From Bacteroidota bacterium (lineage in GTDB: Bacteria; Bacteroidota; Bacteroidia; 2-12-FULL-35-15), in contig CANJYB010000016.1 in the NCBI GenBank assembly GCA_947479085.1, forward strand, positions 1 to 64,000: a stretch of 64,000 nucleotides of DNA, given 5' to 3'. The translations under genes were made by a program, and so were the position numbers. The notes under the pieces are model-generated. The model saw only the letters and a program-made list of their open reading frames with translations, was not told the DNA's origin and did not search any database. How positions within the stretch are numbered: position 1 is the first letter of the stretch; each line of letters starts with the position of its first letter. Below are positions 49,428 through 64,000 of this stretch, in pieces.

Positions 49428-52400
49428 TTAATCCTCCGTCACCTCATGCCAAGGGAAATTACCCCCACCTTTCGAAGTTTCCCAATAAAATTTGCCACGT
49501 TTTACATCATAGTTCCCTATTTGGTTCATCGTTTCAGCGTCATATAAGCGGCCGTTCACCATTACATACTTAATACTTTCCGTATTACGGATGTTCTCCA
49601 GCGGGTTTTTATCCATTACTATTAAGTCAGCCAGTTTTCCTTTCTCCAGGGAACCAATCTGGTCACCCATACCAATATAATCCGCCCCGTTTTGCGTAGC
49701 GCAACGGATAGCCTGCAAAGGAGTAAGTCCGCCCATTTGCAACATCCATAATTCCCAATGCGCCCCAATGCCCTGTATCTGTCCGTGAGAGCCAATGTTC
49801 ACTTTAACTCCCGCATCGGTAAGTTTTTTACAAGAACGGGAAACCTGCATCCAGCCCCAGTCGTATTCGCTGTCCGGAATCATTGTTCTTTCGCGCGAGC
49901 GGCTATCAATAATAGAACGAGGGAAGAAATTTAACAGGCGCTTGTTTTCCCAGACATTTGTTTTCTGGTACCAATAGTCCTCCCCATTTATAGCACCATA
50001 ACATACTATAAGAGTAGGAGTATAGCCTGTTTTGCTGCCACTCCAAAGTTTAATTACGTCATTACTAAGGTCAGCAATCGGAATATTATGTTCTATCCCG
50101 GTATGTCCGTCAATTATTTCGCTCATGTTGTCAAAAAAAGTAGAGCCACCTTCGGGCACCACATTTATCTGCAAATCCCTGGCAGCAGCTATCACCTGCT
50201 GGCGTTGTTCCCTGCGAGGCTGGTTATAGCTTTTTACAGAAAAAGCACCAAAAGCTTTTGTTCTCGCAATGGCCGAACGGGCATCGTCATAACTATTAAT
50301 AACCGCTTTAAAATCACCTTCGGCACCATACAGAATAGTTCCGGTGGAATATATCCGCGGCCCCACCATGTATCCGGCCTTTACCATTTCCGATTGAGAA
50401 AATACCATCTCCGAATTAGAAGAAGGGTCATGAGTGGTAGTAACCCCAAAGGCAAGGTTGGCATAATAACTCCATTGTTTCTGTGGGCTTGGTCCCAAAC
50501 GCCAGGTACTCAAATGCGAGTGAACATCCACCATGCCCGGCATAATGGTTTTGCCGGTACAATCTATAACCTTTGCATCTCCGGGAATTTTAACATCATC
50601 TGCCTTGCCAACAGCCTCTATTTTATTATCATTTACAAGGATGGTTCCGTTTTCGATTACCTCATCTCCTTTCATGGAAATGATTCTTGCTCCTTTAAAA
50701 GCCACATACCCTTTCGGTTTATCAGTAGGAAGTTCCAAATCTATTTTCACCCCAACGCTGTCCATTGGCGGCAGTTTATCAGGCGCTCCTTCCAGGAAAG
50801 CAAAGCGTTCTTTCAGGTTATCTGTAAAGTATTGGTCGCCATAAGTCCAGTGAATTCGCTTGCTATCTTTGCTCCAGGCCAGGTTCAGGCCGGCATCTTT
50901 TGCTATTTGAGCCACCGGCATAGCGCCCATACCACCCGATATTTCAATAGGTTTACCGGTTTTAGGGAAAGCCACAACATAGGCTTTGAAAAGTTCAATA
51001 AATGCCAACCAATTTCCATCAGGGCTTGGAGTAACTGAGGTAGCGTACTTGGAAGTAAAGCAGGTTTTAATTTCGTTGGTATTTATATCAATAGTCTTAT
51101 ACACCTTACTATCGCCTTCATCAGTTTGAAATAAAACCTTATCATTTCCCAAAAACTGAGGATTAGAACCTTCCTTAGTCAATAATTTTGGAGTATAATT
51201 CGGAATGTTTTCCATAATGTAAATGCCGGGGTTAACGCAATTCGTAAACCCCATGTGGTCGTTACCATCTTCTTTTACATATACCACTTTCATCCCATTA
51301 GGAGAAAAATGAGGAGTACGGTATATGCCTTTGTCCTGGGTCATTTTCATTGGAGTTTTGTCAATAAGGCTCATTTTCATTACTGTGCCCTGGTTCTCGT
51401 CATTCCAGGTGGTGTAGATAACTTCATCCTCGTTAGGAGAAAAAGAAGGTTCGAATTCAAAGTCTTTTGAAGAAGTTAAGCGCGTAGGTTTTCCATCGGG
51501 CAGGTCCTTTTTCCATAAATACCCCACGGAATTAAATATTAGTATTTTTTCATCATGGTTAACAGTAAGGTTGCGAATTACCTTTACTGTAAACTTATCA
51601 GGAGCCACTTCCTGTCTGAATTTCAAGGCGTCTATTACTTTGTGTTTGGCATTTACCGTAAACGGAATTTCCTTGGCAGAAGATTTATCAATGTCAACAT
51701 TCCATATTTTACCATTTGCCCAAATGATAATGTGTTTGTCGCTTAACCAGTTGAAATTAGTGTACACACCAAATATGGCCCAGGCTTCCTGCTGGTCTTT
51801 GCTGAGTTTATCGTATATCGGCCATTCTTCGCCTGTTTCCATATTTCTTAAATATAAAACAGAAGCCTCATGAACACGTTTTACAAAAGCCAGTGTTCTG
51901 CCATCTTTCGAAATCTGCGGGCGAATGGCACCACCTGGTCCACCTGTAATATCTTCGGTTTCGCCAGTCTGGCGGTCGTATCTTTTAATTACATAAATCT
52001 GTTTGTTCGGGTCTTTATTATATAAAAACATTCCACCCGGATACATGTCCTCACTATAATATACATAACGGCCATCAGGCGATACGCAAGGCTCGCCCAC
52101 ATCCTGTTGAGAATTCTTTTTTACTGTCAGTTGCAAACCATCGCCACCGCTGATGTGGTAAATCCACATTTCACCAGCACCGAGAGAACGGGTAGAGGTA
52201 AAATGTTTACGGGCGATGATGTATTGCCCATCAGGGGTCCAGACAGGATTGTTTAATAATCGGAAGCTTTCTTTGGTTACCTGTTTGGCATCCGTTCCAT
52301 CCGCATTCATTGTCCAGATGTTGTTTCCTCCACCCGCATCGGATGTAAAACAAATCTTTTTGCCATCAGGAGAGAAGCGAGGCTGCACCTCGAACGGGAA

Positions 52401-52673
52401 ACCACTTCTCAACACTTTTGCTTCGCCACCCGAAACCGGCATGGTATAAATGTCGCCTAACATATCAAAAACAATGTCTTTACCATCGGGGCTGACATCT
52501 AGGTTCATCCAGGTGCCTTCGGTGGTTGTAAAATCTACCTCCTTAAAAGTTCCTTTCGGGTTGGACACGTCCCATTTTTTGTCTTTTTCTTTGTCTTTTC
52601 CTTTATCCTTATCTTTTTGGGCAAAGGATACTGAGGCCAAAAGGCAGGCTGCAAGTAGTAGTTTTGATTTCAT
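49428..52673 (-). CDS. TolB-like propeller fused to amidohydrolase
   Basis: A 1081-residue exported protein (signal MKSKLLLAACLLASVSFAQ). After a Lys/Asp-rich spacer (KDKDKGKDKEKDKK), residues ~35-640 are PD40/TolB propeller blades: LDVSPDGKDIVFDMLGDIYT, PRFSPDGKKICFTSDAGG, NPVWTPDGQYIIARK, PSFSPNEDEVIYTTW. The C-terminal ~440 residues are an amidohydrolase domain: TGKTIMPGMVDVHSHLSTWRLG (metal HxH), EGGSTFFDNMSEIIDGHTGIEHNIP, VNIGSHGQIQGIGAHWE and GSLEKGKLADLIVMDKNPLENI, which are standard. The fusion is common in Bacteroidota; the natural substrate is unknown. Single gene, weak terminator, no clear promoter found. Confidence 0.92.
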   Translation of the reverse strand: MKSKLLLAACLLASVSFAQKDKDKGKDKEKDKKWDVSNPKGTFKEVDFTTTEGTWMNLDVSPDGKDIVFDMLGDIYTMPVSGGEAKVLRSGFPFEVQPRFSPDGKKICFTSDAGGGNNIWTMNADGTDAKQVTKESFRLLNNPVWTPDGQYIIARKHFTSTRSLGAGEMWIYHISGGDGLQLTVKKNSQQDVGEPCVSPDGRYVYYSEDMYPGGMFLYNKDPNKQIYVIKRYDRQTGETEDITGGPGGAIRPQISKDGRTLAFVKRVHEASVLYLRNMETGEEWPIYDKLSKDQQEAWAIFGVYTNFNWLSDKHIIIWANGKIWNVDIDKSSAKEIPFTVNAKHKVIDALKFRQEVAPDKFTVKVIRNLTVNHDEKILIFNSVGYLWKKDLPDGKPTRLTSSKDFEFEPSFSPNEDEVIYTTWNDENQGTVMKMSLIDKTPMKMTQDKGIYRTPHFSPNGMKVVYVKEDGNDHMGFTNCVNPGIYIMENIPNYTPKLLTKEGSNPQFLGNDKVLFQTDEGDSKVYKTIDINTNEIKTCFTSKYATSVTPSPDGNWLAFIELFKAYVVAFPKTGKPIEISGGMGAMPVAQIAKDAGLNLAWSKDSKRIHWTYGDQYFTDNLKERFAFLEGAPDKLPPMDSVGVKIDLELPTDKPKGYVAFKGARIISMKGDEVIENGTILVNDNKIEAVGKADDVKIPGDAKVIDCTGKTIMPGMVDVHSHLSTWRLGPSPQKQWSYYANLAFGVTTTHDPSSNSEMVFSQSEMVKAGYMVGPRIYSTGTILYGAEGDFKAVINSYDDARSAIARTKAFGAFSVKSYNQPRREQRQQVIAAARDLQINVVPEGGSTFFDNMSEIIDGHTGIEHNIPIADLSNDVIKLWSGSKTGYTPTLIVCYGAINGEDYWYQKTNVWENKRLLNFFPRSIIDSRSRERTMIPDSEYDWGWMQVSRSCKKLTDAGVKVNIGSHGQIQGIGAHWELWMLQMGGLTPLQAIRCATQNGADYIGMGDQIGSLEKGKLADLIVMDKNPLENIRNTESIKYVMVNGRLYDAETMNQIGNYDVKRGKFYWETSKGGGNFPWHEVTED

Positions 52674-52735
52674 CTATATAAATTGTTTTATTGTTATATT
52701 ATTATGGATATCTTAATTAATCGACTATAAAAATT

Positions 52736-52811
52736 TCTCGCAAAGACGCGAAGAACGCAAAGTGTTGAACAAAGGGTATATTTTCTTAGCGAACTTTGCG
52801 TCTTTGCGAGA
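52736..52811. repeat. large palindrome (TCTCGCAAAGACGC)
   Basis: Left arm TCTCGCAAAGACGC plus GAAGAACGCAAAG (52736-52762) and right arm ending GCGTCTTTGCGAGA (52785-52811). The outer 14 bp pair perfectly, the inner part partly. A single-arm relative is at about 2687-2718. No T run and no ORF, so it is an intergenic repeat rather than a terminator. Confidence 0.85.
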
Positions 52812-52898
52812 CACCTAAATATTTGCGGATGCTAAATAAGCTATAAAAAATGAGATGGGAAAGAAATTTGAGGATAAGCGGTAATAAATTGGGATAAA

Positions 52899-53045
52899 TT
52901 AATCGAGGGAATTGGTGGTTACCCAATATTTATAACCTATTATTGCTTTTTCCCATTTTTTGAGTTTGGTTAAATCGCGGTAATGGTATTTGGGCAGCAG
53001 GGCTTTGTTTAACTTTGCAAGCAATCTGAACAGGGATTTTTTCAT
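52899..53045 (-). CDS. conserved 48-residue basic protein divergent from rpmE2
   Basis: A 48-residue protein read from the ATG at 53045 to TAA at 52899-52901: MKKSLFRLLAKLNKALLPKY, then HYRDLTKLKKWEKAIIGYKY, then WVTTNSLD. The pattern (FxLLAKLNKxxLP, then KWxxAIIGYxYWVTxNxLD) is one I recognise from short Bacteroidota hypothetical proteins, and the gene often lies next to rpmE-type genes. It is basic and helical with no membrane segment. It is in a different frame from, and more plausible than, the 63-residue open frame over the same bases. A -7-like TACCTTTG (53050-53057) ends 4 nt before the ATG, suggesting a leaderless mRNA. Confidence 0.7.
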   Translation of the reverse strand: MKKSLFRLLAKLNKALLPKYHYRDLTKLKKWEKAIIGYKYWVTTNSLD

Positions 53046-53049
53046 GAGG

Positions 53050-53057
53050 CAAAGGTA
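53050..53057 (-). promoter_or_regulatory. -7 element of 48-residue protein gene
   Basis: Minus-strand TACCTTTG, exact TAnnTTTG, 4 nt before the ATG, so transcription would begin at or next to the start codon. Confidence 0.45.
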
Positions 53058-53083
53058 AAGTTAAATTTTTTATCAGGGAAGTG

Positions 53084-53113
53084 TTGCACGTATGGTAGAA
53101 ATATCTATCTTTG
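53084..53113 (+). promoter_or_regulatory. promoter of rpmE2 (TTG-19-TAtcTTTG)
   Basis: TTG at 53084-53086 and TATCTTTG at 53106-53113, 19 nt apart. It overlaps the start of the longer open frame (53111), which supports the ATG at 53141. Confidence 0.8.
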
Positions 53114-53140
53114 TCGTCCAAAATAAAAAAAGAAAGTAAA

Positions 53141-53431
53141 ATGAAACTAGGAATTCACCCAGAAAATTATCGTTTAGTAGTATTCAAAGATTTGAGTATT
53201 GATTATTCATTCATCACTAAATCATGTGTTGAAACAAAAGAAACCATCGTTTGGGAAGATGGAAACGAATATCCGATTGTAAAATTAGAGATCTCGAACA
53301 TGTCTCACCCTTTTTATACAGGTAAAGTTAAATTGGTGGATACAGCAGGTCGTGTTGATAAATTCCGTACCCGTTACGCGAAAAAAGAAGAAACTAAAAA
53401 AGAAGAACCGAAAAACGAAGAAACGAAATAG
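53141..53431 (+). CDS. rpmE2: 50S ribosomal protein L31 type B
   Basis: A 96-residue ribosomal protein; start at the ATG at 53141, giving [19 protein letters not shown]. It belongs to the zinc-free type B group: the Cys quartet of classical L31 is absent (a single Cys in [10 protein letters not shown]). The core has [45 protein letters not shown], a diagnostic match. The C-terminal Lys/Glu tail ([15 protein letters not shown]) is a Bacteroidota feature. It is monocistronic with a clear promoter and terminator. Divergent from the 48-residue protein gene. Confidence 0.97.
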
Positions 53432-53450
53432 TTTTTTAATTATTGCCGGG

Positions 53451-53485
53451 AAATCCTTCATCAAGAAATTGGTGAAGGATTTTTT
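53451..53485 (+). terminator. terminator of rpmE2
   Basis: AAATCCTTCATCAA (53451-53464) pairs with TTGGTGAAGGATTTTTT (53469-53485), with a 4-nt loop and T run, one G-T mismatch. Confidence 0.88.
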
Positions 53486-53536
53486 GTTTTATGCTATTAT
53501 ATAATTATCTATTTTAGCGTTTCAAATAAATTAACG

Positions 53537-54538
53537 ATGGAGCAAATGCCAACACCTACCAAGTTATTTCCTTATCCTAACTCCTGGTATGTTATTGAAA
53601 ATTCAGAAAATCTTAAGCCGCTTCAATTAATAGAAAAGCAGATTGCAGGGAAAAACTTTGTATTGTTCCGGACGGCTTCTGGCGAGGCCTGTCTTTCGGA
53701 CGCTTACTGTCCGCATTTGGGTGGGCACCTTGCACATGGAGGCCATATAGAAGGAGAAACCATTGTTTGCCCGTTTCATTATTTTTGTTTTGATACAAAA
53801 GGAGCATGTGTTAAAACAGGATATGGTACTAAACCACCTCCTAAAGCCATTTTAAAAACTTACCCGATAAGAGAAAGGAACGGATTTATACTTTACTGGC
53901 ACCATGAGCAGGAAGAATTGCCTGAATGGGAAGTGCCGGAAACGGACAATGATGACTGGACAGAAATAAAAACAACAGATTTCCTGTTGAGCAGTCATCC
54001 GCAGGAAACAACTGAGAACAGTGTGGATGTGGGACATTTTTCGGTGGTTCATAAATACAGCAATATTACTACCCTTAAAGAGTTGAAAGCGGAAGGAGCA
54101 TATCTGAATGCATCGTATGGCTTTAACAGAGCTCCTGAAGGTTTTATAGGGAAGGGCACACAAGGAATAAAGGCGGAAATTGATATTCATGTGTATGGCT
54201 TGGGATATTCATTTGTGGAGGTGGATTTGCCGGAAATGAAATTGAGAACAAGGCAATATGTTTTTCCTACCCCCATTGATGGAAATAAAATAAATCTGAA
54301 GATAGGCATGAGTGTAAATAAAAGATTTAAGTCTTCTAAGATTCATCCTGCACTTTCTCTAATACCCAAAAAGACATTGACAAAAATTTTATTGAATAAG
54401 GCATTTGCAGGATATGCCAATGATGTAGGGCAGGATTTTAAGATATGGGAAAATAAAGTCTATATGGATCATCCGGCCTTGGCTAAAGGCGATGGACCGA
54501 TAGGGAAATACCGCCAATGGGCCAAACAATTTTATTAA
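53537..54538 (+). CDS. Rieske non-heme iron oxygenase, alpha-subunit type
   Basis: A 333-residue oxygenase. The Rieske [2Fe-2S] cluster is bound by Cys58, His60 (CPHLGGH) and Cys78, His81 (CPFHYF). The mononuclear iron site lies in ENSVDVGHFSVVHKYSN: Asp164 bridges, His167 and His172 bind iron; the third Asp is in ANDVGQDFKIWENKVYM near the C-terminus. Length and order fit the KshA-like group that hydroxylates sterols and other bulky ring compounds, but the substrate is unknown. The electron-supplying reductase is not encoded nearby. The next gene starts 3 nt after its stop codon. Confidence 0.9.
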   Translation: MEQMPTPTKLFPYPNSWYVIENSENLKPLQLIEKQIAGKNFVLFRTASGEACLSDAYCPHLGGHLAHGGHIEGETIVCPFHYFCFDTKGACVKTGYGTKPPPKAILKTYPIRERNGFILYWHHEQEELPEWEVPETDNDDWTEIKTTDFLLSSHPQETTENSVDVGHFSVVHKYSNITTLKELKAEGAYLNASYGFNRAPEGFIGKGTQGIKAEIDIHVYGLGYSFVEVDLPEMKLRTRQYVFPTPIDGNKINLKIGMSVNKRFKSSKIHPALSLIPKKTLTKILLNKAFAGYANDVGQDFKIWENKVYMDHPALAKGDGPIGKYRQWAKQFY

Positions 54539-54541
54539 TCC

Positions 54542-55306
54542 ATGTTTAGATTCATAATTATTTTAGTTTCTTTTCTTGTTTCATCATCTTCACCTGATGA
54601 AATGCAAATGGGTATTGATTATTTTAATGCAAGAGCTACTAATGCTAAAGGATTGGTTGCCGATGAAACCAACATTAATAAAGCCATTACTGTTTTTGAG
54701 AAACAAATTTCAGAAAATAAAAGTACCGAGCAGGCTGTAGCCTATTATCTCAAAAGTCTTAATTTTAAAGGAAGATTTGTGGCAATGAATGATGAGACTA
54801 AAAAGAAAATTTATCGCAAAGCGAAAGACCTTGGTAATAAATATATCCGACAATACCCTGAAAGCGGACCAATACGCTTTGAATTGATTTCTTCCATTGG
54901 CCTTGAGGCGGAGATGGATGGAATATTAAAAAGTATTCAGAATGATGTGATGAAACTGATGCTATACCATTCGCAAATGTTAATTAAAACCGACTCGATG
55001 TGCATGCAGGGAGGTGGCTGGAAAGTATTGGCAATATTGAATTATAAAACTCCCAATATTCCTTTATTAGTTTCCTGGCCAAGTAAGGAAACGGCAAAAA
55101 AGCTTTTGCAAAAATCGTTGGTTTATTTCCCAACTATTATTTCAAATAATTTTTATTATGCCGAAGCTTTACTGGAGAACAAGGAGAATGTAAGGGCTAA
55201 AATATATTTTCAATTGGTTTTAAAGTTGCCACCACGAAAAGATTGTGTGCTGGAAGATGAATATTTTAAAATAAAGGCGAGAAAGTATTTAGAAAAAATG
55301 GTTTAA
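54542..55306 (+). CDS. exported helical repeat protein (TatT/TPR-like)
   Basis: A 254-residue protein with a signal-like N-terminus (FRFIIILVSFLVSSSS). The mature chain is entirely helical; the C-terminal half (GGGWKVLAILNYKTPNIPLL, then KETAKKLLQKSLVYFPTIISNNFYYAEALLENKENVRAKIYFQLVLKLPP) has the layout of TPR-like helical repeats as in the TRAP T-component family. No enzymatic motif. It starts 3 nt after the Rieske gene and ends 41 nt before the next plus-strand gene, so they are probably one transcript. The family name is tentative. Confidence 0.65.
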   Translation: MFRFIIILVSFLVSSSSPDEMQMGIDYFNARATNAKGLVADETNINKAITVFEKQISENKSTEQAVAYYLKSLNFKGRFVAMNDETKKKIYRKAKDLGNKYIRQYPESGPIRFELISSIGLEAEMDGILKSIQNDVMKLMLYHSQMLIKTDSMCMQGGGWKVLAILNYKTPNIPLLVSWPSKETAKKLLQKSLVYFPTIISNNFYYAEALLENKENVRAKIYFQLVLKLPPRKDCVLEDEYFKIKARKYLEKMV

Positions 55307-55347
55307 AGATTTTTTATTTAAGTTGAACTTATAGTTAAGAAAATAAA

Positions 55348-57198
55348 ATGAGCAAAATAAAACCAACAGAGAAACCACTACAAAAGAAAAAGATGGAGGA
55401 GAGTTCTCAAAAATCAAAACTATTAAATCCAAAGTATTTATTAGGTGGGATAATGATTCTTGTTCTGGTCATTTATTCCAATGCTCTTCATAACGATATT
55501 CTGACGTTTGATGACAATGACTATTTTAATAATTACCCGGAAGTAATTAATTTCAGTTGGGCGAGCATCAAAACCTATTTTACTCATTATTATTTAATTA
55601 TGTACCAGCCTTTGCCTGTGCTGACTTTGGCTGCCAATTATCATTTTTCCGGCTTTCATTCTTTCCCGATGCATGTTTTTAATCTTGTGTTCCACCTGAT
55701 AAATATATTGCTTGTTTTCCGATTCATCGATTTACTTATAAAAAACAAAAACATTGCACTTATAATTGCTTTGATATTCGCTATCCACCCGATGAATGTG
55801 GAAGCTGTTTCATGGATTTCGGCAAGAAGCAGCAGCATGTACACTTGTTTTTATTTGTTTGCGCTTATTGCTTATTTAAAATACCTTGGAGAAAACAAAA
55901 CGAAGTATATAATTTATGCGGCATTGTTTTTTATTGTCTCTCTTTTTTGTAAAGCACAGGCAGTAACATTACCAGTAGTTATGCTATTGCTTGATTTTTA
56001 TTTTAACAGGGAAATATTTTCGGTTAAGGTTTTACTTGAAAAGGTTCCCTTCTTCTTATTGAGTATTACTTTTGGGATTGTGACTTTACTTGATAAAGAT
56101 ACCATGTCGAACATTACCAGCGGGATGGTGAATACCTACAACCCTTTGGATATTTTTTTTATTGTTTGTCATTCGATGGTGTTTTATGTTTTTAAGTTTT
56201 TCCTTCCCGTTAACCTTTGCAGTATTTATGTATATCCGCCAAAAGCGGGTGCTATGCTGCCAATGACTTATTATCTGTCGGCAATTGTTTTTATTGGGTT
56301 GCTTTATCTTTTATTTAAGTTCAGAAAAAATAAAGAAGTTGTTTTGGGTGCAGGTTTGTTTCTCATCACCATTGCCATTAACATTCAGTTGATTCCATCG
56401 CGATTATTTGAAGTAACAGACCGATATGGATATTTTCCATATTTAGGTTTGAGCTTGTTAATCCTGTTTTATATAAATCATTTGAAAGAAACGAACAGGA
56501 TTAAATACACTAACTATAAACCGTATTTTATTATTGCGTTGCTATGTTACGGAGTGTTTTTTTCGTTTGCTGTTTACAGCCGAAACACTGTTTGGCAAAA
56601 CGATGATACCCTGATGACAGATATTATTAAAAAGAATCCCCAGTCAGAATACCTTTACAGGGCTTATGGGAACAGAGGGTTTTATTATAAAAGAACCAAC
56701 CGACCTCAGGAAGCTATTTCAGATTTTACAGAAGCAATAAAATTAAAACCCGATGATAGCCGTAATTATTTTAACCGTGCATTGACCTATATGCTGATGA
56801 ATGATAATGGAAATGCGACTGCTGATTTTACAGAAGCAATAAAACTTGATCCCAAACAACCGTTGCTATATGCTAACAGAACACAAACCCGTTTGCTGAT
56901 GAAAGACACTGCTGGAAGCATAGCAGATGCAGAACAGTGTATAAGGCTTGATTCAACCAATGTAGATTCTTACAATACATTAGCAACTATAGAATATGCG
57001 AGGCAGCAATATGATAAAAGTGAACAACACCTTACTGCAGCTATTACAAGTAATCCTAAGTTTGCAATCGGATTTAAGAACAGGGGACTTCTATATATGA
57101 AGTTGAATAAAATGGATAAAGCCTGTGCGGATTTTGAAACGGCTTCCAATCTTGGCAACCAGGATGGAGCCTCTCTTCACCAGCAGAACTGTCATTAA
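55348..57198 (+). CDS. multi-pass membrane protein of the TMTC/GT-C type with TPR tail
   Basis: A 616-residue protein. About eleven to twelve membrane helices fill residues 25-420. The pattern FDDNDYFNNYPEV with its Asp, then FLHQPLP-like PLPVLTLAANYHF and FHSFPMHVFNLVFHLINILLV, then FAIHPMNVEAVSWISARSSSMYTCFYL, is that of Tmtc/GT-C glycosyltransferases that use lipid-linked sugars. The final ~180 residues (about 430-610) hold five TPR units (YRAYGNRGFYYKRTNRPQEAISDFTEAIKLKPDDS and relatives). It probably transfers a sugar to exported proteins; no target is shown. It ends before a hairpin at 57204-57236. Confidence 0.85.
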   Translation: MSKIKPTEKPLQKKKMEESSQKSKLLNPKYLLGGIMILVLVIYSNALHNDILTFDDNDYFNNYPEVINFSWASIKTYFTHYYLIMYQPLPVLTLAANYHFSGFHSFPMHVFNLVFHLINILLVFRFIDLLIKNKNIALIIALIFAIHPMNVEAVSWISARSSSMYTCFYLFALIAYLKYLGENKTKYIIYAALFFIVSLFCKAQAVTLPVVMLLLDFYFNREIFSVKVLLEKVPFFLLSITFGIVTLLDKDTMSNITSGMVNTYNPLDIFFIVCHSMVFYVFKFFLPVNLCSIYVYPPKAGAMLPMTYYLSAIVFIGLLYLLFKFRKNKEVVLGAGLFLITIAINIQLIPSRLFEVTDRYGYFPYLGLSLLILFYINHLKETNRIKYTNYKPYFIIALLCYGVFFSFAVYSRNTVWQNDDTLMTDIIKKNPQSEYLYRAYGNRGFYYKRTNRPQEAISDFTEAIKLKPDDSRNYFNRALTYMLMNDNGNATADFTEAIKLDPKQPLLYANRTQTRLLMKDTAGSIADAEQCIRLDSTNVDSYNTLATIEYARQQYDKSEQHLTAAITSNPKFAIGFKNRGLLYMKLNKMDKACADFETASNLGNQDGASLHQQNCH

Positions 57199-57203
57199 AC
57201 AAA

Positions 57204-57236
57204 AAGGGTACTACCTTTTAAAAAGGTAGTACCTTT
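57204..57236 (+). terminator. terminator of GT-C/TPR gene
   Basis: AAAGGGTACTACCTTTT (57203-57219) and AAAAGGTAGTACCTTT (57221-57236), with one extra base, make a long stem with almost no loop; only a short T run follows. Confidence 0.6.
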
Positions 57237-57253
57237 ATAATAGTGAAGACTTT

Positions 57254-57676
57254 TTAATTAAAATGAAAAAAGAAAAACACTACCGCTGCATACGATTTTG
57301 GAATACCGCTGGCACTGCCAATGCTGCTTCCCGAACTGTTGCGAACAGTACCATTCGATTCTATTTTACCAATACTGCTTCCTGATTCGTTTCTAACGGT
57401 TCCGTCTGATTCTATTTTACCAACACTGCTGCCGGAACTGTTACGTATCGTTCCATCTGAATCTATTTTACCAATGCTGCTTCCTGAACTGTTGCGAATA
57501 GTGCCATTGGATTCTATTTTACCAACACTACTTCCTGAACTGTTACGAATGGTGCCATCCGATTCTATTTTTCCATTGCTACTTCCGCTTGAGCTTCGGA
57601 TATCCTGAGCGTGAAGGGTTGATATGCCAATTAATAGCATACATACTGTTGCGATACTGAATGTGATTTTTTTCAT
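57254..57676 (-). CDS. exported protein of tandem 17-residue beta repeats
   Basis: A 140-residue protein with signal MKKITFSIATVCMLLIGIST (cleavage after LHAQ). The mature part is five consecutive 17-residue units of the form NSSGSS(V/I)GKIESDGTIR, plus a partial sixth, then GSASGIPKSYAAVVFFFFHFN. The pattern resembles '4-fold beta flower'-type Gly/Ile/Asp repeats. The units are 51 bp and nearly identical at DNA level, so the array may change in copy number. The hydrophobic FFFF ending is unusual for a secreted protein. A -7 element TACATTTG is at 57720-57727. Function unknown. Confidence 0.75.
   Translation of the reverse strand: MKKITFSIATVCMLLIGISTLHAQDIRSSSGSSNGKIESDGTIRNSSGSSVGKIESNGTIRNSSGSSIGKIDSDGTIRNSSGSSVGKIESDGTVRNESGSSIGKIESNGTVRNSSGSSIGSASGIPKSYAAVVFFFFHFN
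57290..57600 (-). repeat. 51-bp tandem repeat inside the 17-residue-repeat gene
   Basis: About five 51-bp units encode the 17-residue repeats. The coding units differ mainly at the S/V/I, N/D and I/V positions. Confidence 0.88.
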
Positions 57677-57719
57677 GATTTTAATTTTTAAAATGTTAAT
57701 GAGTTAATTATTTGTTGAA

Positions 57720-57727
57720 CAAATGTA
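57720..57727 (-). promoter_or_regulatory. -7 element of 17-residue-repeat gene
   Basis: Minus-strand TACATTTG, exact TAnnTTTG, 44 nt before the ATG. Confidence 0.45.
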
Positions 57728-57825
57728 GTTAAAAAGATTCCAATCTTATGATTTGTTGATTTTTTGAATTCAAATAATTCCATGTTTGAAATTTCACTTT
57801 TTTATAAAGATTATGTAAGGGAATT

Positions 57826-57863
57826 AAAAAAGAGGAATTCCTTTTACAGAATTCCTCTTTTTT
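57826..57863 (-). terminator. terminator of the FKBP operon (original 3' end)
   Basis: AAAAAAGAGGAATTC (57826-57840) pairs perfectly with GAATTCCTCTTTTTT (57849-57863), 8-nt loop, with T runs on both sides. It lies 19 nt after the stop codon of the FKBP remnant (57882-57884), supporting that the remnant was the authentic 3' end of the operon. Confidence 0.88.
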
Positions 57864-57881
57864 AAAAATGAATAGTAATTA

Positions 57882-57980
57882 TTAATGACCTCCCTGAGGA
57901 GCATCATGCACATCTACCAATTCCACATCAAATGTTAAATCAGCTTTAGCAGGTATTTGTGGTTGGGATTTGATAATATT
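57882..57980 (-). pseudogene. remnant of an FKBP C-terminus
   Basis: In one minus-strand frame, this stretch reads QPQIPAKADLTFDVEL, then VDVHDAPQGGH and stop. It closely matches the end of FKBP domain 3 of the neighbouring intact gene (PPQIPAKADLTFDLEL at 58488-58535). It has no start and is preceded by a frame change at about 57970. It is followed at 19 nt by a strong terminator. The simplest reading is that this is the leftover 3' end of the gene at 58013-59665 before a retropepsin domain was inserted. The DNA is also alike between the two copies, so the event is not ancient. Confidence 0.8.
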
Positions 57981-58012
57981 AAAAAGCAGTCAAAAGCAAA
58001 CATTTATAGGTA

Positions 58013-59665
58013 TTATTCAATTATTAACAAACTGTTTTTATTATCAATTGTGATTTTACTGAATTTTTGAAGGGCACTTTGACCTAACAAAACCGGGGCA
58101 GACAAATTATCAACTATTGACGCTTCAATATTTTTTAATACTGTTGTTCCTATTGTTAGTTCTTTTATGATAATTTTTGTTCCCTCACTAATTTTCCCAT
58201 CAGCGGTTAAATAATTTTGAGATCCCCTGAAATCTGTTTTGTCAATCTTGCCTTGTTTGAATAAGAACAAGGCCTCATTGGATGACATTGAAAAATCACT
58301 AGCACCAGTATCAAAAATAACATTGTCAATTTCCACTCCATTAACTTTGACATCCATTTCATAAACACCACTCATTTTTTTTCTTAATGGAATTCCTTTA
58401 ATTGTTTGAGGGTTATTTGTTGTTTTTTGAAATTCTTTATCAATCTTTTCAGGCTGATAATTTATTGTTTGATCACCAACTCCTAACAATTCCAAATCAA
58501 ATGTTAAATCTGCTTTTGCAGGTATTTGTGGCGGGCGACCTTGCTCACCGTAAGCTAAAAAGTAAGGGATAACAATTCTTAATTTATCTCCTAAATTCAT
58601 CAAAGCAATTCCTTCTTCCCAACCCGGAATAACCTGTCCCTGGCCAAGAGGAAACTCAATAGGCTCCCCTCTTTCTACTGATGAATCGAACATTTTGCCA
58701 TCGGCAAGATAACCTGAATAATGAACTTTCACTACTTTTCCTGCTTCCGCTTTTACAGGGTTGCTGCTTTTGTTTATCACATAATATTTAATTCCGGAAG
58801 CAGTAGTTTGTTCTTTTACTCCTGCAATGTTATAAGGAACAGGTGCAACAGCAGCCTGAACATCTATAATCTCCACATCAAATATCAAATCGGATTTTGC
58901 AGGAATAACTGGTGCACGACCTGCCTCACCATAAGCCAATGCATAAGGAATAATCAATTTTGCTTTTTCTCCTTTATGAAGCAAAGCCAATCCTTCGTCC
59001 CAGCCCGGAATAACCTGTCCGGCACCAACTTTTAAACCTGCAAATGGTTTACCTCTTTCAACGGATGAATCGAACATTTTACCATCTCTGAAAAAACCAC
59101 TGTAATGCACAGTAACCTTAGCACCTGCGCAAGAAGCCGCATCTTTATGGGTTTCGTACATAATGTATTTTAAACCTGTTTTGGTAGTAATGGTGTCTTT
59201 CTCTTTCCCTTTTGCACTCCATTGTTTCAATCCTTCCGTAACTTTTAATAATTCAATATCAAAAATAAGAGTAGCGTTTGCAGGTATTTTGCCCATTGCT
59301 CTGTCTCCGTAAGCAATTGTAGGAGGTAGTTTAATGGTAGCTTTATCTCCTTCCTGTAACAAAGCAAATGCTTCGTCCCAACCTTTGATAACCTGACCTG
59401 CACCCAGTTTAAATTCAAAAGGCTGACCTCTTGGAATGGAGCTGTCAAATACAGTATCATTGGTTAATTTTCCGGTATAGTTTACGGTGATTTTATCACC
59501 TGCACTTGCTTTTTTGCCATTTCCTTTTTCAGTGATGGTATATTCAAGGCCTGATTCTGTTTTAATTGTTTTCGGATTTTTCACTTTTTCGCTTGTAATT
59601 TTTTTGTCCTGTGCATTGGCAGCTATTGCTGTTATTGCCATAATCAAGGTGAATACTTTTTTCAT
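58013..59665 (-). CDS. triple-FKBP peptidyl-prolyl isomerase fused to retropepsin-like aspartic protease
   Basis: A 550-residue exported protein (signal MKKVFTLIMAITAIAANAQ). FKBP domain 1 is about 35-145 (SGLEYTITEKGNGKKASAGD to NATLIFDIELLKV), domain 2 about 160-275 (TGLKYIMYE to DLIFDVEIIDV), and domain 3 about 290-400 (SGIKYYVINK to DLTFDLELLGV). Each has the PPIase pattern VxYSG / GQVIPGWDEG / IPYxLAYGE. From ~415 it is a retropepsin-type aspartic protease: VIFDTGASDFSM with the catalytic Asp at about 452, then a flap-like YLTADGKISEG, then APVLLGQSALQKF, which is the hydrophobic-Gly feature. A single domain would dimerise. The protease part appears to have been inserted; see the remnant at 57882-57980. 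The fusion might fold and cut envelope proteins, but that is inference. Confidence 0.85.
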   Translation of the reverse strand: MKKVFTLIMAITAIAANAQDKKITSEKVKNPKTIKTESGLEYTITEKGNGKKASAGDKITVNYTGKLTNDTVFDSSIPRGQPFEFKLGAGQVIKGWDEAFALLQEGDKATIKLPPTIAYGDRAMGKIPANATLIFDIELLKVTEGLKQWSAKGKEKDTITTKTGLKYIMYETHKDAASCAGAKVTVHYSGFFRDGKMFDSSVERGKPFAGLKVGAGQVIPGWDEGLALLHKGEKAKLIIPYALAYGEAGRAPVIPAKSDLIFDVEIIDVQAAVAPVPYNIAGVKEQTTASGIKYYVINKSSNPVKAEAGKVVKVHYSGYLADGKMFDSSVERGEPIEFPLGQGQVIPGWEEGIALMNLGDKLRIVIPYFLAYGEQGRPPQIPAKADLTFDLELLGVGDQTINYQPEKIDKEFQKTTNNPQTIKGIPLRKKMSGVYEMDVKVNGVEIDNVIFDTGASDFSMSSNEALFLFKQGKIDKTDFRGSQNYLTADGKISEGTKIIIKELTIGTTVLKNIEASIVDNLSAPVLLGQSALQKFSKITIDNKNSLLIIE

Positions 59666-59694
59666 TTTTTACTAATTTATTTATTTTACGAATT

Positions 59695-59727
59695 ACCCCT
59701 GTCAGGGTTCTAAACCCTGACAGGGGT
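59695..59727. repeat. dispersed palindrome, CCCTGTCAGGG family
   Basis: ACCCCTGTCAGGGTT (59695-59709) pairs perfectly with AACCCTGACAGGGGT (59713-59727), 3-nt loop. It lies in the leader between two FKBP genes, 30 nt before the ATG of the triple-FKBP gene. Confidence 0.92.
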
Positions 59728-59754
59728 ATGTTTTAAACTATTTTTAAATAAAAA

Positions 59755-60765
59755 TTATTTTCCTGAAGGAACTCCCGGAGGAATTACAGCTGGCTTTCCT
59801 GCTGTAAAACTTACCAGTTCCACGTCAAATACAAGTGTTGAATATGGAGGAATTGGTCCACCACCTTGTTCTCCGTAACCAATAGCAGAAGGAACGATTA
59901 ATTGTGCTTTAGTTCCAGGGTTCATTAACATAATGGCTTCGTCCCATCCTGGTATTACCTGACCTACACCAATAGCAATATCAATTGGCTCATAAGGTCT
60001 TTTTTCGTCAAAGATATTTGCTTTCTGAGCTACATCCTTATCAGAAGTGTCAAACACAGTACCGTCTAATAATCTTCCGGTATATTTTACTTTTACGTTA
60101 TCACCTTTATTAGGTTTTGCTCCTCTTCCTTTTGTTTTTTCAATATAGATTAAACCGGTAGGTGTAGCTTTAGTTGAGATTTTATTGTCAGCAATGTATT
60201 TTGCAAATTCGGATGCTTCTTTTGATTTACGTTCAGAAAGCATTGCATTGCGCTCGTCTGTTTTCTTTTTCTTTTCTGCATCCACTTCTTCTTTGGAAGT
60301 GATTTTTGCCAACTTTGCTTCGAAGGTTAACATAGAACCTGCCATTACAAAAGGAGGAAGTTTTTCCTGTTTGAATGTTTTTAGATAAACTGAATCAGCA
60401 GAAATCATAAAACTTGCGCTGTCGCCTACCGACATCATGGTGATGGCATCTTCAAAACTTCCGTGGAAGGTTGATTTGTTTAACGGAAATTCAATGTAGT
60501 TATTTTGGCTTCTTGTAAATTTAGGATCTTTTGAATCAAACAGAACAGAGTCTTTGCTGTTTTTGTAAGACATTACTAATCTTACTAAATCACCTTCTTT
60601 TGGTTTTGCACCTTTATCATCGTGTGTGTAGAATTTTGCATAAACACCATTTTCATTTGCATCATATCCAGGATAAGGAGATTTGTTGCAAGAAGTAAGT
60701 GCTACTGCTGATACCACAAGCCCTAAGGCTGCAGTTTTAATTGTTGTTGTAATCGACATTTTCAT
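59755..60765 (-). CDS. FKBP-type peptidyl-prolyl isomerase lipoprotein (two FKBP domains)
   Basis: A 336-residue lipoprotein; signal to ALTSC (Cys26) gives the acylation site. Its N-terminal half (about 30-160) is a degenerate FKBP domain (VYAKFYTHDDKGAKPKEGDLVRLVMSYKN). A helical linker (about 165-205) follows, then a complete C-terminal FKBP domain (about 205-325: TGLIYIEKTKGRGAKPNKGDNVKVKYTGRLLDGTVFDTS, VGQVIPGWDEAIMLMNPGTKAQLIVPSAIGYGEQGGGPIPPYSTLVFDVELVSF). Periplasmic chaperone for outer membrane or gliding proteins, by family. A second ATG at 60759 is in frame. Next in line after the 60808 gene (42-nt gap). Confidence 0.9.
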   Translation of the reverse strand: MKMSITTTIKTAALGLVVSAVALTSCNKSPYPGYDANENGVYAKFYTHDDKGAKPKEGDLVRLVMSYKNSKDSVLFDSKDPKFTRSQNNYIEFPLNKSTFHGSFEDAITMMSVGDSASFMISADSVYLKTFKQEKLPPFVMAGSMLTFEAKLAKITSKEEVDAEKKKKTDERNAMLSERKSKEASEFAKYIADNKISTKATPTGLIYIEKTKGRGAKPNKGDNVKVKYTGRLLDGTVFDTSDKDVAQKANIFDEKRPYEPIDIAIGVGQVIPGWDEAIMLMNPGTKAQLIVPSAIGYGEQGGGPIPPYSTLVFDVELVSFTAGKPAVIPPGVPSGK

Positions 60766-60807
60766 TTTTTTTTAGTTGTTGTTTTTATTTATTTAGTAAA
60801 GGATTTA

Positions 60808-61707
60808 TTAATTATTGTATTTAGTTAAGCTAAGCATTTCTATTTCGTAAACCACGGTGGTGTATGGAGGCACAATTCCGGTGGAAGAGCCTGTTTCACC
60901 AAAAGCAAGTTGCGAAGGAATAATAAACTTTGTTTTTGCTCCTTCGTTCATTAGTCTTATGGCGCTTTCCAGCCCGCTGATTATCTGGCCCTGTGTACCT
61001 ACTATCATTTCGAGTGGCTGGTTGCGTTCGTAAGTAGATTCAAATGTTTTTCCGTTCAGGAAATAACCTTTGTAATGAATTTTAATGGTGTTTCCTGTTT
61101 CGGCATTGTCGCCTGCACCCTGTTTAATAGGTAAATAAAACATGCCGTTATTCAATGGATAATATTCGGTATGGCAAGTATCCAGATAAGTTTGGAGCTT
61201 ACGCTGTTCCTCAATATCGCGGTCTTCCACCATCTGTTCATAGTTTTTCAGTTCCTGTTCATATTCCGGAGGAGTAAGGATTTTATGAAGTTTAACATCC
61301 ATTTTCACAACACTTCCCGCAGGGAGAAATAAAGGCAAATCGGCACGAAAGAACTTTTTGAAAAGAGAATCGGCACTGACAATGAAAGAAACACTGTCTC
61401 CATCATTCATGGTCATCAATCCTTCTTCAAAGCTGCCTTCGAAAGAAGAATGCTGGAATGGAAGAATTACTTTACCTGTTTCGTTGTTTGAATAGGAATC
61501 CAGGAACACGGAATCTTTTTCTGTTTTGTAAGTAATAATCAATTGAAGGTATTCGCCCGGCTGAGGTTTCCGCTTACCATCACCAATTACCTGCAGTTTA
61601 TAATGCAAGCCCGAATCGGTAAGTGTGTATCCTTTGTATTTCGATTTTCTGAAACAGGAAGAAAAAACAAAACTGATTAAAAGAAGGTATAAAACGTATT
61701 TTTTCAT
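60808..61707 (-). CDS. FKBP-type peptidyl-prolyl isomerase lipoprotein (two FKBP domains)
   Basis: A 299-residue lipoprotein (signal YVLYLLLISFVFSSC, Cys18). It has the same layout as the 59755 product: degenerate N-terminal FKBP domain (GLHYKLQVIGDGKRKPQPGEYLQLIITYKTEKD), helical linker (YEQELKNYEQMVEDRDIEEQRKLQTYL), complete C-terminal FKBP domain (GMFYLPIKQGAGDNAETGNTIKIHYKGYFLNGKTFESTY, IISGLESAIRLMNEGAKTKFIIPSQLAFGETGSSTGIVPPYTTVVYEIEML). The two are paralogues. Its ATG directly follows the TAA of the 61708 gene with no gap, so they are translated together. Confidence 0.9.
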   Translation of the reverse strand: MKKYVLYLLLISFVFSSCFRKSKYKGYTLTDSGLHYKLQVIGDGKRKPQPGEYLQLIITYKTEKDSVFLDSYSNNETGKVILPFQHSSFEGSFEEGLMTMNDGDSVSFIVSADSLFKKFFRADLPLFLPAGSVVKMDVKLHKILTPPEYEQELKNYEQMVEDRDIEEQRKLQTYLDTCHTEYYPLNNGMFYLPIKQGAGDNAETGNTIKIHYKGYFLNGKTFESTYERNQPLEMIVGTQGQIISGLESAIRLMNEGAKTKFIIPSQLAFGETGSSTGIVPPYTTVVYEIEMLSLTKYNN

Positions 61708-62241
61708 TTATCTCAGCGACAATAATTCGAGTTCGTACATAACAGAAGCATGTGGTGGAATTTTGCTGTCATCGCCCACCAAACCATGTGCAAGATGGGA
61801 GGGAAGTATCATCACTGCCTTATCTCCCACGTGCATGTATTTAATTCCTTCGTGCAATCCGCTTTCCACATTATCCTGTCCTATTAAAAATTCCTTGGCA
61901 CCGGTAGAATCGGAAGAATAACAAAGAGTGCCATCGAGCAAACTGATTTTGTAATTTACTTTAGCTCTTTTGGCATCTTCGGCTTGTGCTCCAGTTCCGT
62001 TTTTTGTAATCATGTATCTTAATCCTGTGCCGGTGGTGGTCATTTTCCAGTTATGATGTTCCACATATCGATCTATTTCGTCACTTTCCTGCTTTACGTA
62101 CATTTTGTTGGCATCTATCAGTTTTTCTTTAAACGCCTGGCTTTCTATGTTTACAGGTTTAGCAGTGTTGTTCCTGTTGCAGGAAGTAACAAAACTTAAG
62201 GTTCCCAGAAAAATAAATAAATATAATTTTAAACTCAGCAT
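61708..62241 (-). CDS. GldI-like FKBP lipoprotein
   Basis: A 177-residue lipoprotein; start at the ATG at 62241, giving MLSLKLYLFIFLGTLSFVTSC with Cys21 acylated. The longer frame to 62265 begins with TTG. One FKBP domain (about 75-175: GLRYMITKNGTGAQAEDAKRAKVNYKISLLDGTLCYSS, VESGLHEGIKYMHVGDKAVMILPSHLAHG, PPHASVMYELELLSLR). The size and position next to nrnA match GldI of gliding Bacteroidota, so it may help fold gliding or T9SS components. Its stop codon touches the next ATG. Confidence 0.88.
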   Translation of the reverse strand: MLSLKLYLFIFLGTLSFVTSCNRNNTAKPVNIESQAFKEKLIDANKMYVKQESDEIDRYVEHHNWKMTTTGTGLRYMITKNGTGAQAEDAKRAKVNYKISLLDGTLCYSSDSTGAKEFLIGQDNVESGLHEGIKYMHVGDKAVMILPSHLAHGLVGDDSKIPPHASVMYELELLSLR

Positions 62242-62281
62242 CTTTTTAATTCTAAAATTCTCCAACTCAAAAATTCCAGAA

Positions 62282-63307
62282 TTATTTCTTAATCTTTTTA
62301 TTCAACTCCTTTTTATACTCCGGCAAAACGGAAATAAACTTAATCACCGATTCGTCCAAAGATAAATCACTTTGTCCGCCTGCGGCATGTGCATGGCCTC
62401 CGCCATTAAAGTTTTTTCTTGCAAAGAGGTTAACATCAAATGTTCCTTTCGAACGGAAAGAAGTTTTTACAGCATCATCTCTTTCTACAAAAAAGGCTGC
62501 AAAACAAATCCCTTCGATGGAAAGTGCATAGTTTACCACTCCTTCGGTATCTCCTTTTTTATAATTAAATCGTTTCAGTTCGTCTGCCCTTAAGCTGAAA
62601 AAAGCAGTGTTGTATTCCTTTAGTACCGTCAGTTTTTCGGATAAACAAAAGCCAAGCAAACGCAAACGGCTTTCGGTATTATCGTCATAAATGCGGTTAT
62701 GAATTTCAGAATTATCAGCTCCGGCCTTTATCAATGCTGCCACTATTTCGTGTGTGCGGTAGGTAGTGGACGGAAAACGGAACGAGCCGGTATCGGTCAT
62801 CATGCCGGTGTACAGACAGTCGGCTATGTTTTTATTCAGCTTTTTATCATCGCCCATCAGGTGAATAAAATCGAAAACCAGTTCGCAGGTGGAACAGGCT
62901 TCCACATTATGCAACATGTATTTGGCAAAACCATCGGGTTGCAGGTGGTGGTCGATAATCAATTTAGGAGCTTTCGATTTTTCTACTTCCGTTCCCAAAT
63001 CGTTGATGCGCTTCAGGGAGTTAAAATCGAGACAAAAAATAAGGTCGGCTTTGGCAACTAATGGCTTGGCCACTTTTGCTTTCAGCGAAAAGTCAATTAC
63101 TTTATTATTGCCCGGCAGCCAGTTCAAAAAAGCGGGGTAATCGTTTGGAGTAATAACGGTTACTTTATGTTTTTTTTGAATTAAATAATTATATAATCCT
63201 AATGAAGAACCCATTGCATCACCATCGGGCGACCAATGTGTCACTATCACAATGTTCTTGGGTGTGGATAAAAGAGTAGTTACCTCTTTAATTTGAGCTT
63301 GGTTCAA
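62282..63307 (-). CDS. nrnA: DHH family phosphoesterase (NrnA-type nanoRNase / pAp phosphatase)
   Basis: A 341-residue cytoplasmic enzyme. DHH domain: VIVTHWSPDGDAMGSSLGL (metal-binding DxD), FCLDFNSLKRI, then LIIDHHLQPDGF (the DHH motif, about residue 117) and GMMTDTGSFRFPSTT. The DHHA1 domain ends NGGGHAHAAGG, binding the substrate. Such enzymes degrade short oligoribonucleotides and 3'-phosphoadenosine 5'-phosphate. Only a TTG start (63307) fits; no ATG lies upstream in frame. A -7 element TATTTTTG (63333-63340) lies 25 nt before it and supports this. It heads the FKBP run: 40 nt to the GldI-like gene. Confidence 0.93.
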   Translation of the reverse strand: MNQAQIKEVTTLLSTPKNIVIVTHWSPDGDAMGSSLGLYNYLIQKKHKVTVITPNDYPAFLNWLPGNNKVIDFSLKAKVAKPLVAKADLIFCLDFNSLKRINDLGTEVEKSKAPKLIIDHHLQPDGFAKYMLHNVEACSTCELVFDFIHLMGDDKKLNKNIADCLYTGMMTDTGSFRFPSTTYRTHEIVAALIKAGADNSEIHNRIYDDNTESRLRLLGFCLSEKLTVLKEYNTAFFSLRADELKRFNYKKGDTEGVVNYALSIEGICFAAFFVERDDAVKTSFRSKGTFDVNLFARKNFNGGGHAHAAGGQSDLSLDESVIKFISVLPEYKKELNKKIKK

Positions 63308-63332
63308 AGTTTGTTTTTTTATTAATGGGCTA

Positions 63333-63340
63333 CAAAAATA
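63333..63340 (-). promoter_or_regulatory. -7 element of nrnA-FKBP operon
   Basis: Minus-strand TATTTTTG matches TAnnTTTG, 25 nt before the TTG start. No TTG at the ideal distance upstream. Confidence 0.5.
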
Positions 63341-63706
63341 CTATTATTTTTCACTTGGAGAGGTTTAGGATATGTGAACGAATGTTAAAGGCTGTTTTAA
63401 TTCGGAAATAGGGCGGTTTTGGGATGAAAAATAACAGGAAAGGGTGAGGGTATTATTAAACCTTCAAGGTTTTCAAAACCTTGAAGGTTTATTGTATTAT
63501 GATTTTCTTTATTCGTTTGTTGGTGAAAAACACCAATAAAGGCGTAAAACTAAAATATCTATTATGTTTTTTTATTTGGCTTTGGAATAAATATTTTTTT
63601 AAATTTGACGTGTATTTAATAGCATACTTATTATAGATAGAACTGAATAGTTCAAAAATACATATAAATATCCTTATATGAATACTGGGTTAAACTTTAA
63701 TTTTAA
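63341..63706. other. intergenic region between nrnA and the final lipoprotein gene
   Basis: About 365 bp between divergent genes. The main element is the CCTTCAAGG palindrome (63458-63490). The rest is AT-rich with no supported gene. Confidence 0.5.
63458..63490. repeat. dispersed palindrome, CCTTCAAGG family
   Basis: AAACCTTCAAGGTTTT (63458-63473) and AAAACCTTGAAGGTTT (63475-63490), a perfect 16-bp pairing around one base. Both arms are self-palindromic. It matches the lpdA terminator palindrome at 19422-19454 in sequence but is not next to a gene end here. Confidence 0.9.
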
Positions 63707-64000
63707 ATGAAAAAATTACTTTTTTGTATATTCGTTTTTGTTTCGGGGTGTGCACCTGTAATAAAAGTACAAATGCCTTATACGGATAGTAATCCGCCCG
63801 AAATAACTTATGTAAAACGAGAGGGCGCAACACCAACAGAAAAGGAAAAGAATTATGATAATTTAATAGAAAAGATTCTTCTTGTGTGTCCTGGTTCTAA
63901 AATAAAAACTGGTCGCGAAGATTTTAAAAGTGACGAAAGTTTGTTTTTTCAAATGGTAGGATATTCAACATATACTTATAAAGATAAACCCGTTCAGTTT
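63707..64000 (+). CDS. lipoprotein, N-terminal part (cut by window end)
   Basis: The first 98 residues of a lipoprotein read from the ATG at 63707 and open to the right edge. Signal MKKLLFCIFVFVSG with lipobox VSGC; Cys15 is the acylation site. The mature part begins APVIKVQMPYTDSNPPEITYV, then a charged stretch (REGATPTEKEKNYDNLIEKI), then LLVCPGSKIKTGREDFKSDESLFFQMVGYSTYTYKD. No known domain is recognised in the visible part. It is divergent from nrnA. Confidence 0.7.
   Translation, partial: MKKLLFCIFVFVSGCAPVIKVQMPYTDSNPPEITYVKREGATPTEKEKNYDNLIEKILLVCPGSKIKTGREDFKSDESLFFQMVGYSTYTYKDKPVQF

Follow-up and report, generated by a model that had tools for sequence, protein, structure and literature searches.

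How an exported prolyl isomerase comes to end in an aspartic protease, and how recently the two were joined, are questions raised by one gene in a 64,000-nt stretch of a Bacteroidota bacterium genome (contig CANJYB010000016.1), hereafter the window. An unbroken open reading frame of 550 codons on the minus strand (58013-59665) encodes an apparent signal peptide (judged by eye; roughly residues 1-19 of the 550-aa product), three FKBP domains, a linker and a retropepsin domain. FKBP_C (PF00254) matches three stretches of the product in Pfam (E 1.7e-97), and the retropepsin domain (58067-58354, minus strand) matches PF13975 across residues 438-533 (E 1.7e-13; 51.4 bits against a cut-off of 28.2) as well as PF13650 (E 2e-9; 38.5 bits against 24.3); TIGR02281, the clan AA DTGA subfamily model, reaches 56.8 bits, just under its cut-off of 57.95. 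The first-pass annotation of this DNA, which had read a retropepsin-type end behind three FKBP domains and had proposed a protease HMM search as a check, is borne out by these Pfam matches, with both protease scores well over cut-off. It had also named a catalytic Asp at about 452 and an LLG motif, and Asp452 indeed sits in FDTGAS, the single DTG of the whole protein, with LLG at 526.

Behind the stop codon of the fused gene, on the same strand, lies a second FKBP3 end (57882-57962), which continues into the tail VDVHDAPQGGH and a stop at 57882 and translates as QIPAKADLTFDVELVDVHDAPQGGH. This downstream piece matches the ends of all three FKBP domains, domain 3 best (85%, against 73% for domain 2 and 62% for domain 1), and at the DNA level 57903-57962 is 85% identical to 58472-58531. 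The core is a 49-nt repeat with 45/49 nt identical (blastn E 2e-17, 400-nt subject), one copy at 57914-57962 and the other, which codes for the FKBP3 end in the fused protein, at 58483-58531 (minus strand). A duplicated remnant had been claimed for 57882-57980, to be checked by aligning it with FKBP3 as DNA; the repeat is real, but its extent was overstated, since the core is confined to 57914-57962 and 57963-57980 is inserted DNA. Counted from repeat start to repeat start, the inserted unit comprises 569 bp (57963-58531, minus strand), and leaving it out, so that 58532 is joined to 57962, yields an in-frame 404-aa triple FKBP whose end resembles that of the gene in the nearest congener, G005, DVELIDVHDGAPDQGGGH. 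Of the positions that distinguish the two copies, seven have the same base in at least three of four near congeners; this base is found in the downstream copy at six and in the fused copy at one. Given these congener bases and the in-frame join, the downstream piece is evidently the native gene end, with the protease inserted in front of it. Because the whole native 3' end is kept, the change is an in-frame insertion and not a replacement, so that of the two routes first proposed, insertion or exchange, the former stands and the latter falls.

The old stop is followed, after about 16 nt and not the 19 nt first reported, by a perfect 17-nt inverted repeat (57824-57840/57849-57865) which, with its T run, forms a hairpin (57824-57865, minus strand; RNA fold -22.2 kcal/mol, z -5.57). 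This element, likely the original terminator, had been correctly noticed, is not among the calls of a simple consensus terminator scan, and has a similar hairpin-like counterpart, by eye, behind the triple-FKBP gene of G005. Composition also separates the two parts of the fused gene, as the first-pass annotation had noted: the protease segment has a GC content of 30.6% versus 38.8% for the FKBP part, and among 1096 coding windows from the same stretch, each 468 nt long, 1.6% are as low as the protease segment. The native part (residues 1-378; 58532-59665, minus strand) shares 81-90% amino acid identity with its five best-matching congeners, and in a mosaic test DNA identity along FKBP3 showed no drop up to the breakpoint.

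Relatives of the same gene supply the unaltered state. A whole-protein search of 59 genomes, including its own and 35 congeners, gave matches in 58. The 3' end could be read in 29 of the 35 congeners (the six others being G001, G010, G020, G023, G025 and G031), and in 28 of these the protein runs 4-20 residues past the last FKBP motif and then stops, protease-free and without the inserted unit; the locus L016, whose contig ends inside FKBP3, stands outside this count. The expectation that related genomes would hold the same gene without its protease is thus answered by 28 congeners. With a query composed of FKBP3 and the protease, 384 of 395 class genomes gave matches (about six candidates scored per genome), and among the matches listed the window's own was alone in spanning both parts; none of the others extends past residue 142 of 250, a point reached by G242 and, with stops, by G374, so that all fall short of the catalytic motif at 152. 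An old fusion since lost in relatives has nothing positive in its favor, would need many independent losses and would leave unexplained why the native gene end follows the protease, and we find it hardly credible.

The surroundings of the gene are partly conserved. Upstream, the minus strand carries at 59755-63307 a row of three further FKBP genes, whose products look by eye like lipoproteins, and a DHH gene that resembles NrnA but scores under the NrnA cut-off. Inspection by eye shows this gene order again in G015 and, with one ORF more, in G005. A perfect 16-bp hairpin (59694-59728) separates the triple-FKBP gene from the next upstream FKBP gene. Behind the terminator, 57254-57676 holds a gene for a five-fold beta-flower protein (PF21785) with internal repeats spaced 51 nt. 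A beta-flower gene follows the triple-FKBP gene on the same strand at L043 and L044, is located elsewhere at L045, and was not found in the examined stretches of L040, L041 and L042, the three nearest congeners; synteny of the right flank past the tail and hairpin therefore rests on two more distant congeners. No tRNA gene was found in 50000-64000, and a PADLOC search for defense systems had no match to the window protein.

With the genome in 50 draft contigs and a repeat that could mislead an assembler, the fused gene might in principle be an assembly chimera. Both flanks of the insert belong to the triple-FKBP gene, however, and the insert is present in one copy only in the genome; one other PF13975 match there is a 182-aa ORF on contig C5. 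Since both flanks come from one gene and the repeat copies differ, the observed structure would not result from simple misjoining at the repeat, and we regard a chimera as very improbable. Beyond the single genomic copy, a search for signs of a mobile element found no inverted-repeat pair at the insert ends (57500-59700).

Capture of a protease by the triple-FKBP gene is thus well supported by these comparisons, and the insertion seems recent, because the native 3' end and terminator can still be read. On balance, we think it rather probable that a 569-bp segment encoding a secreted-type retropepsin, horizontally acquired, recently entered the gene close to the FKBP3 end without breaking the frame, giving an exported chaperone-protease. 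The retropepsin domain would have arrived horizontally; its FKBP-side junction would have formed through short homology and its other junction illegitimately, a combination that would leave a partial repeat such as the one seen; the FKBP3 end carried by the insert would keep the FKBP3 domain whole. In the exported product, the FKBP domains may bind unfolded envelope proteins, the two protease halves of paired chains may form one active site, and the paired protease may cut the bound clients, or the linker, freeing the FKBP part. The folding and cleaving machine named in the first-pass annotation stays a hypothesis.

The retropepsin domain agrees with its homologues at 24 of 29 conserved columns (at least nine of ten homologues agreeing), including DTG and the L and G of LLG, and departs at five, one of them a Ser for an otherwise invariant Gly. 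By sequence, the nearest PDB chains are those of a Rickettsia retropepsin (E 4e-6; 3e-11 with an 11-sequence profile). Structure models were poor, with mean pLDDT values of 63.7 and 55.7 and, in the full-length model, values below 50 over residues 399-550; a Foldseek search with the weak model of pLDDT 63.7 gave no match at E 0.001, the best rows being non-protease, with plasmepsins from E 0.27. The Rickettsia conorii protein, APRc/RC1339, is not known to carry FKBP domains. It is a half-size retropepsin like the window domain (PMC4140852; PDB 5c9b, 5c9d, 5c9f), described in an excerpt of that account as membrane-embedded, and its dimer and activity are experimental, whereas the window protein is known from sequence. 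The RloA secreted retropepsins of Pseudomonas are likewise exported and share the DTG motif with the window domain; as excerpted, their description (PMC12239564) presents RloA as dimeric, reports a disulfide shared by the periplasmic members, where the window protein has one Cys, residue 179, and mentions no FKBP part, in contrast to the three FKBP domains here. The same excerpt states that bacterial retropepsins pair up, their DTG motifs meeting at the dimer interface, and that DTG and the following Ala mark retropepsins (PMC12239564); a second retropepsin motif is named in part of another account (PMC2761423).

The retropepsin domain is sporadic. The single protease sequence found matches in 17 of 198 relatives, its own genome included (that in G034 weak, E 8.6e-4), and in 7 of 395 phylum genomes. 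A profile at E 1e-8 gave matches in 22 of the 395 class genomes and in 9 of the 395 from the phylum, own included, with at most ten candidates scored per genome in these two sets; at E 0.001 it picked out 11 of 37 near genomes, and in five of these the match was strong (E <1e-50). Pfam run on 20 homologous ORFs identified the protease in all 20, TPR repeats in seven, and cyclophilin, FKBP and M28 together in one; by eye, the remaining 12 are stand-alone exported or lipoprotein-like proteins, some with an extra stretch. Alignment A5 holds 20 of 24 ORFs, leaving out L062 (weak match), L064 and L065 (second hits at loci already counted) and L080 (a 113-aa fragment); L079 and L081 gave no re-hit. 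Among 15 protease-family loci, L142 and L150 were run through Pfam, L150 falling below the protease models at E 0.001, and the rest were judged by eye.

No close donor was found in the 198 relatives or the 395 phylum genomes; the best identity to another family member is about 55% over 118 residues. A donor like G024 had seemed a candidate, its tail GVEGDQ resembling the fused GVGDQ, and was dropped because L011 and L012 are the better match to the fused copy along its first stretch. Plasmids yielded two matches to the protease, one at 44% identity and one weak, while phage records, PHROGs and, in a single-protein search, viral contigs yielded none. On the 15-kb Phocaeicola plasmid record OY726032.1 (L100), a protease-TPR fusion lies near a DnaG-like gene, and another family member sits on a viral-collection contig. 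A neighboring gene on OY726032.1 looks mobilisation-like by eye, without a Pfam match. Separately, at L096 (G007:C114), a stand-alone retropepsin, lipoprotein-like by eye, adjoins a pair of genes, one similar to ZorB (E 7.9e-12) and the other weakly similar to ZorA (E 5.8e-4).

Two further members of the family appear to have been captured by other proteins. The first, from G552, a genome of the same phylum, is an exported 928-aa fusion (L101:4111-6897) of M28 (247-442), cyclophilin (468-612), FKBP (685-792) and retropepsin (822-911) domains, in which the retropepsin keeps LDTGAD and LLG. We searched for P0004 in 96 genomes, with G552 among them, and twelve of the homologues listed extend as far as the FKBP end; of these, nine stop at residues 793-798 and G789 (partial) at 794, while G675 and G430 run past it only through stop codons. 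Others end earlier (G478, at a contig end, G751, G758 and G769), and among the matches listed no other runs through the G552 retropepsin in an open frame. Compared as DNA with G686 (89%), homology stops at the FKBP end, where the G686 gene itself ends; long homology resumes about 5.6 kb further on in G552, with short repeats between. As in the window protein, the retropepsin lies close behind an FKBP domain, but the host gene is a different one and the retropepsin is appended at its native end, beside a variable region. That region, next to the fusion gene, opens with a protein-kinase gene. The first-pass annotation knew of no described fusion of this kind; this stands as far as the open-access literature searched is concerned, but the window case is not unique, since G552 holds a second FKBP-retropepsin fusion.

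The second, in G230, is an exported 544-aa TPR protein (L142:1228-2859) with a retropepsin at residues about 74-235, a stretch absent from all 14 aligned ORFs of other genomes (14 of 19 loci, leaving out L160, a stand-alone retropepsin, and L167, L169, L170 and L171). Its homologues are distant, mostly at 25-35% identity, and the G230 capture need not therefore be recent. We found no junction repeats in L142:1200-2150, and L101:6200-7100 of G552 holds one 20-nt pair at 75% identity with one copy at the junction, which may be due to chance. Repeats of the length seen in the window thus flank one of the three capture events, and as none like them were seen in the G552 and G230 junction stretches, a shared insertion mechanism is not supported. 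We take the three events to be independent, because the host genes and sites differ; a single lineage for the captured domains was neither supported nor rejected, with p-AU values of 0.122 (window and G552), 0.12 (all three) and 0.234 (window and G230) on a tree that is mostly unresolved.

These cases bear on what the fused protease does. It could be a self-releasing passenger that cuts the linker after export, leaving a near-ordinary triple FKBP, its fold preserved, and a free protease. The insert brings its own FKBP3 end, so the fold should be kept, and by analogy with APRc, the nearest solved relative by sequence, which autoprocesses via its catalytic Asp according to an excerpt of PMC4140852, such cleavage would be plausible; but the G230 domain lies inside a TPR protein, which release would split in two, and only a short stretch separates FKBP and protease in G552, and we consider this explanation somewhat unlikely. 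The fusion might instead be a neutral accident, a recent, functionless insertion on its way to loss. That it occurs in one genome while the 28 readable congener genes lack it, that the old tail is still intact, as befits a young event, and that the domain is off the family consensus at the five columns noted above would all fit; yet the frame and catalytic motifs are intact even though 4 of the 49 repeat positions have already diverged, and the G552 and G230 captures suggest that such fusions can be kept, which makes an accident, in our view, unlikely.

The FKBP part of the fusion resembles known exported isomerases. Like FkpA/FklB-type FKBPs, the window product is exported, and it scores above the cut-offs of both NCBIfam PRK10902 and PRK11570, which we take to be FkpA and FklB; unlike these, it has three tandem FKBP domains and a C-terminal protease. 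It also exceeds the cut-off of the BamJ model (NF053689; 208.5 versus 100, over three stretches), probably as a sum over three generic FKBP domains, while falling far under that of BamM (45.4 versus 315) and under that of GldI (TIGR03516; 73.5 versus 157.6). BamJ is a surface lipoprotein with an N-terminal lipobox Cys. The window protein shares the FKBP-type fold with BamJ and BamM but has three domains and no lipobox, its sole Cys, residue 179, lying in the FKBP part with none before it. In an excerpted account of the Bacteroidota BAM complex, BamM is a PPI-fold subunit, and for two other species the BAM accessory subunits are described as surface lipoproteins, of which two have PPI folds (PMC12611786).

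Our searches of the open-access literature, with subscription journals and preprints outside coverage, found no paper on an FKBP-retropepsin fusion, no report of a peptidyl-prolyl and retropepsin fusion as judged by titles and the starts of abstracts, and none on retropepsins in Bacteroidetes (the spelling Bacteroidota being outside coverage); PF13975 combined with bacteria yielded plant work only. What is new is the FKBP-retropepsin fusion with a readable scar, together with repeated capture; both domains are of known kinds. Retropepsin hosts seen number three, two of them with the domain close behind FKBP, and we read the family as a secreted-protease domain that recurrently joins exported proteins. 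More tentatively, secreted retropepsins may roam between Bacteroidota on mobile DNA and enter exported chaperone and repeat proteins, turning client binders into client cutters, a possibility under which the window locus would be a snapshot of one such event, its scar still intact.

As a rule, gene fusions come to notice long after they arose. In this locus the insert, the former tail and the empty site are all readable, and two further captures from the same protease family offer comparisons. The locus is accordingly a compact test system for the movement of domains between bacterial proteins. If the fusion is active, prolyl isomerisation and aspartic proteolysis would be coupled within a single polypeptide of the bacterial envelope.
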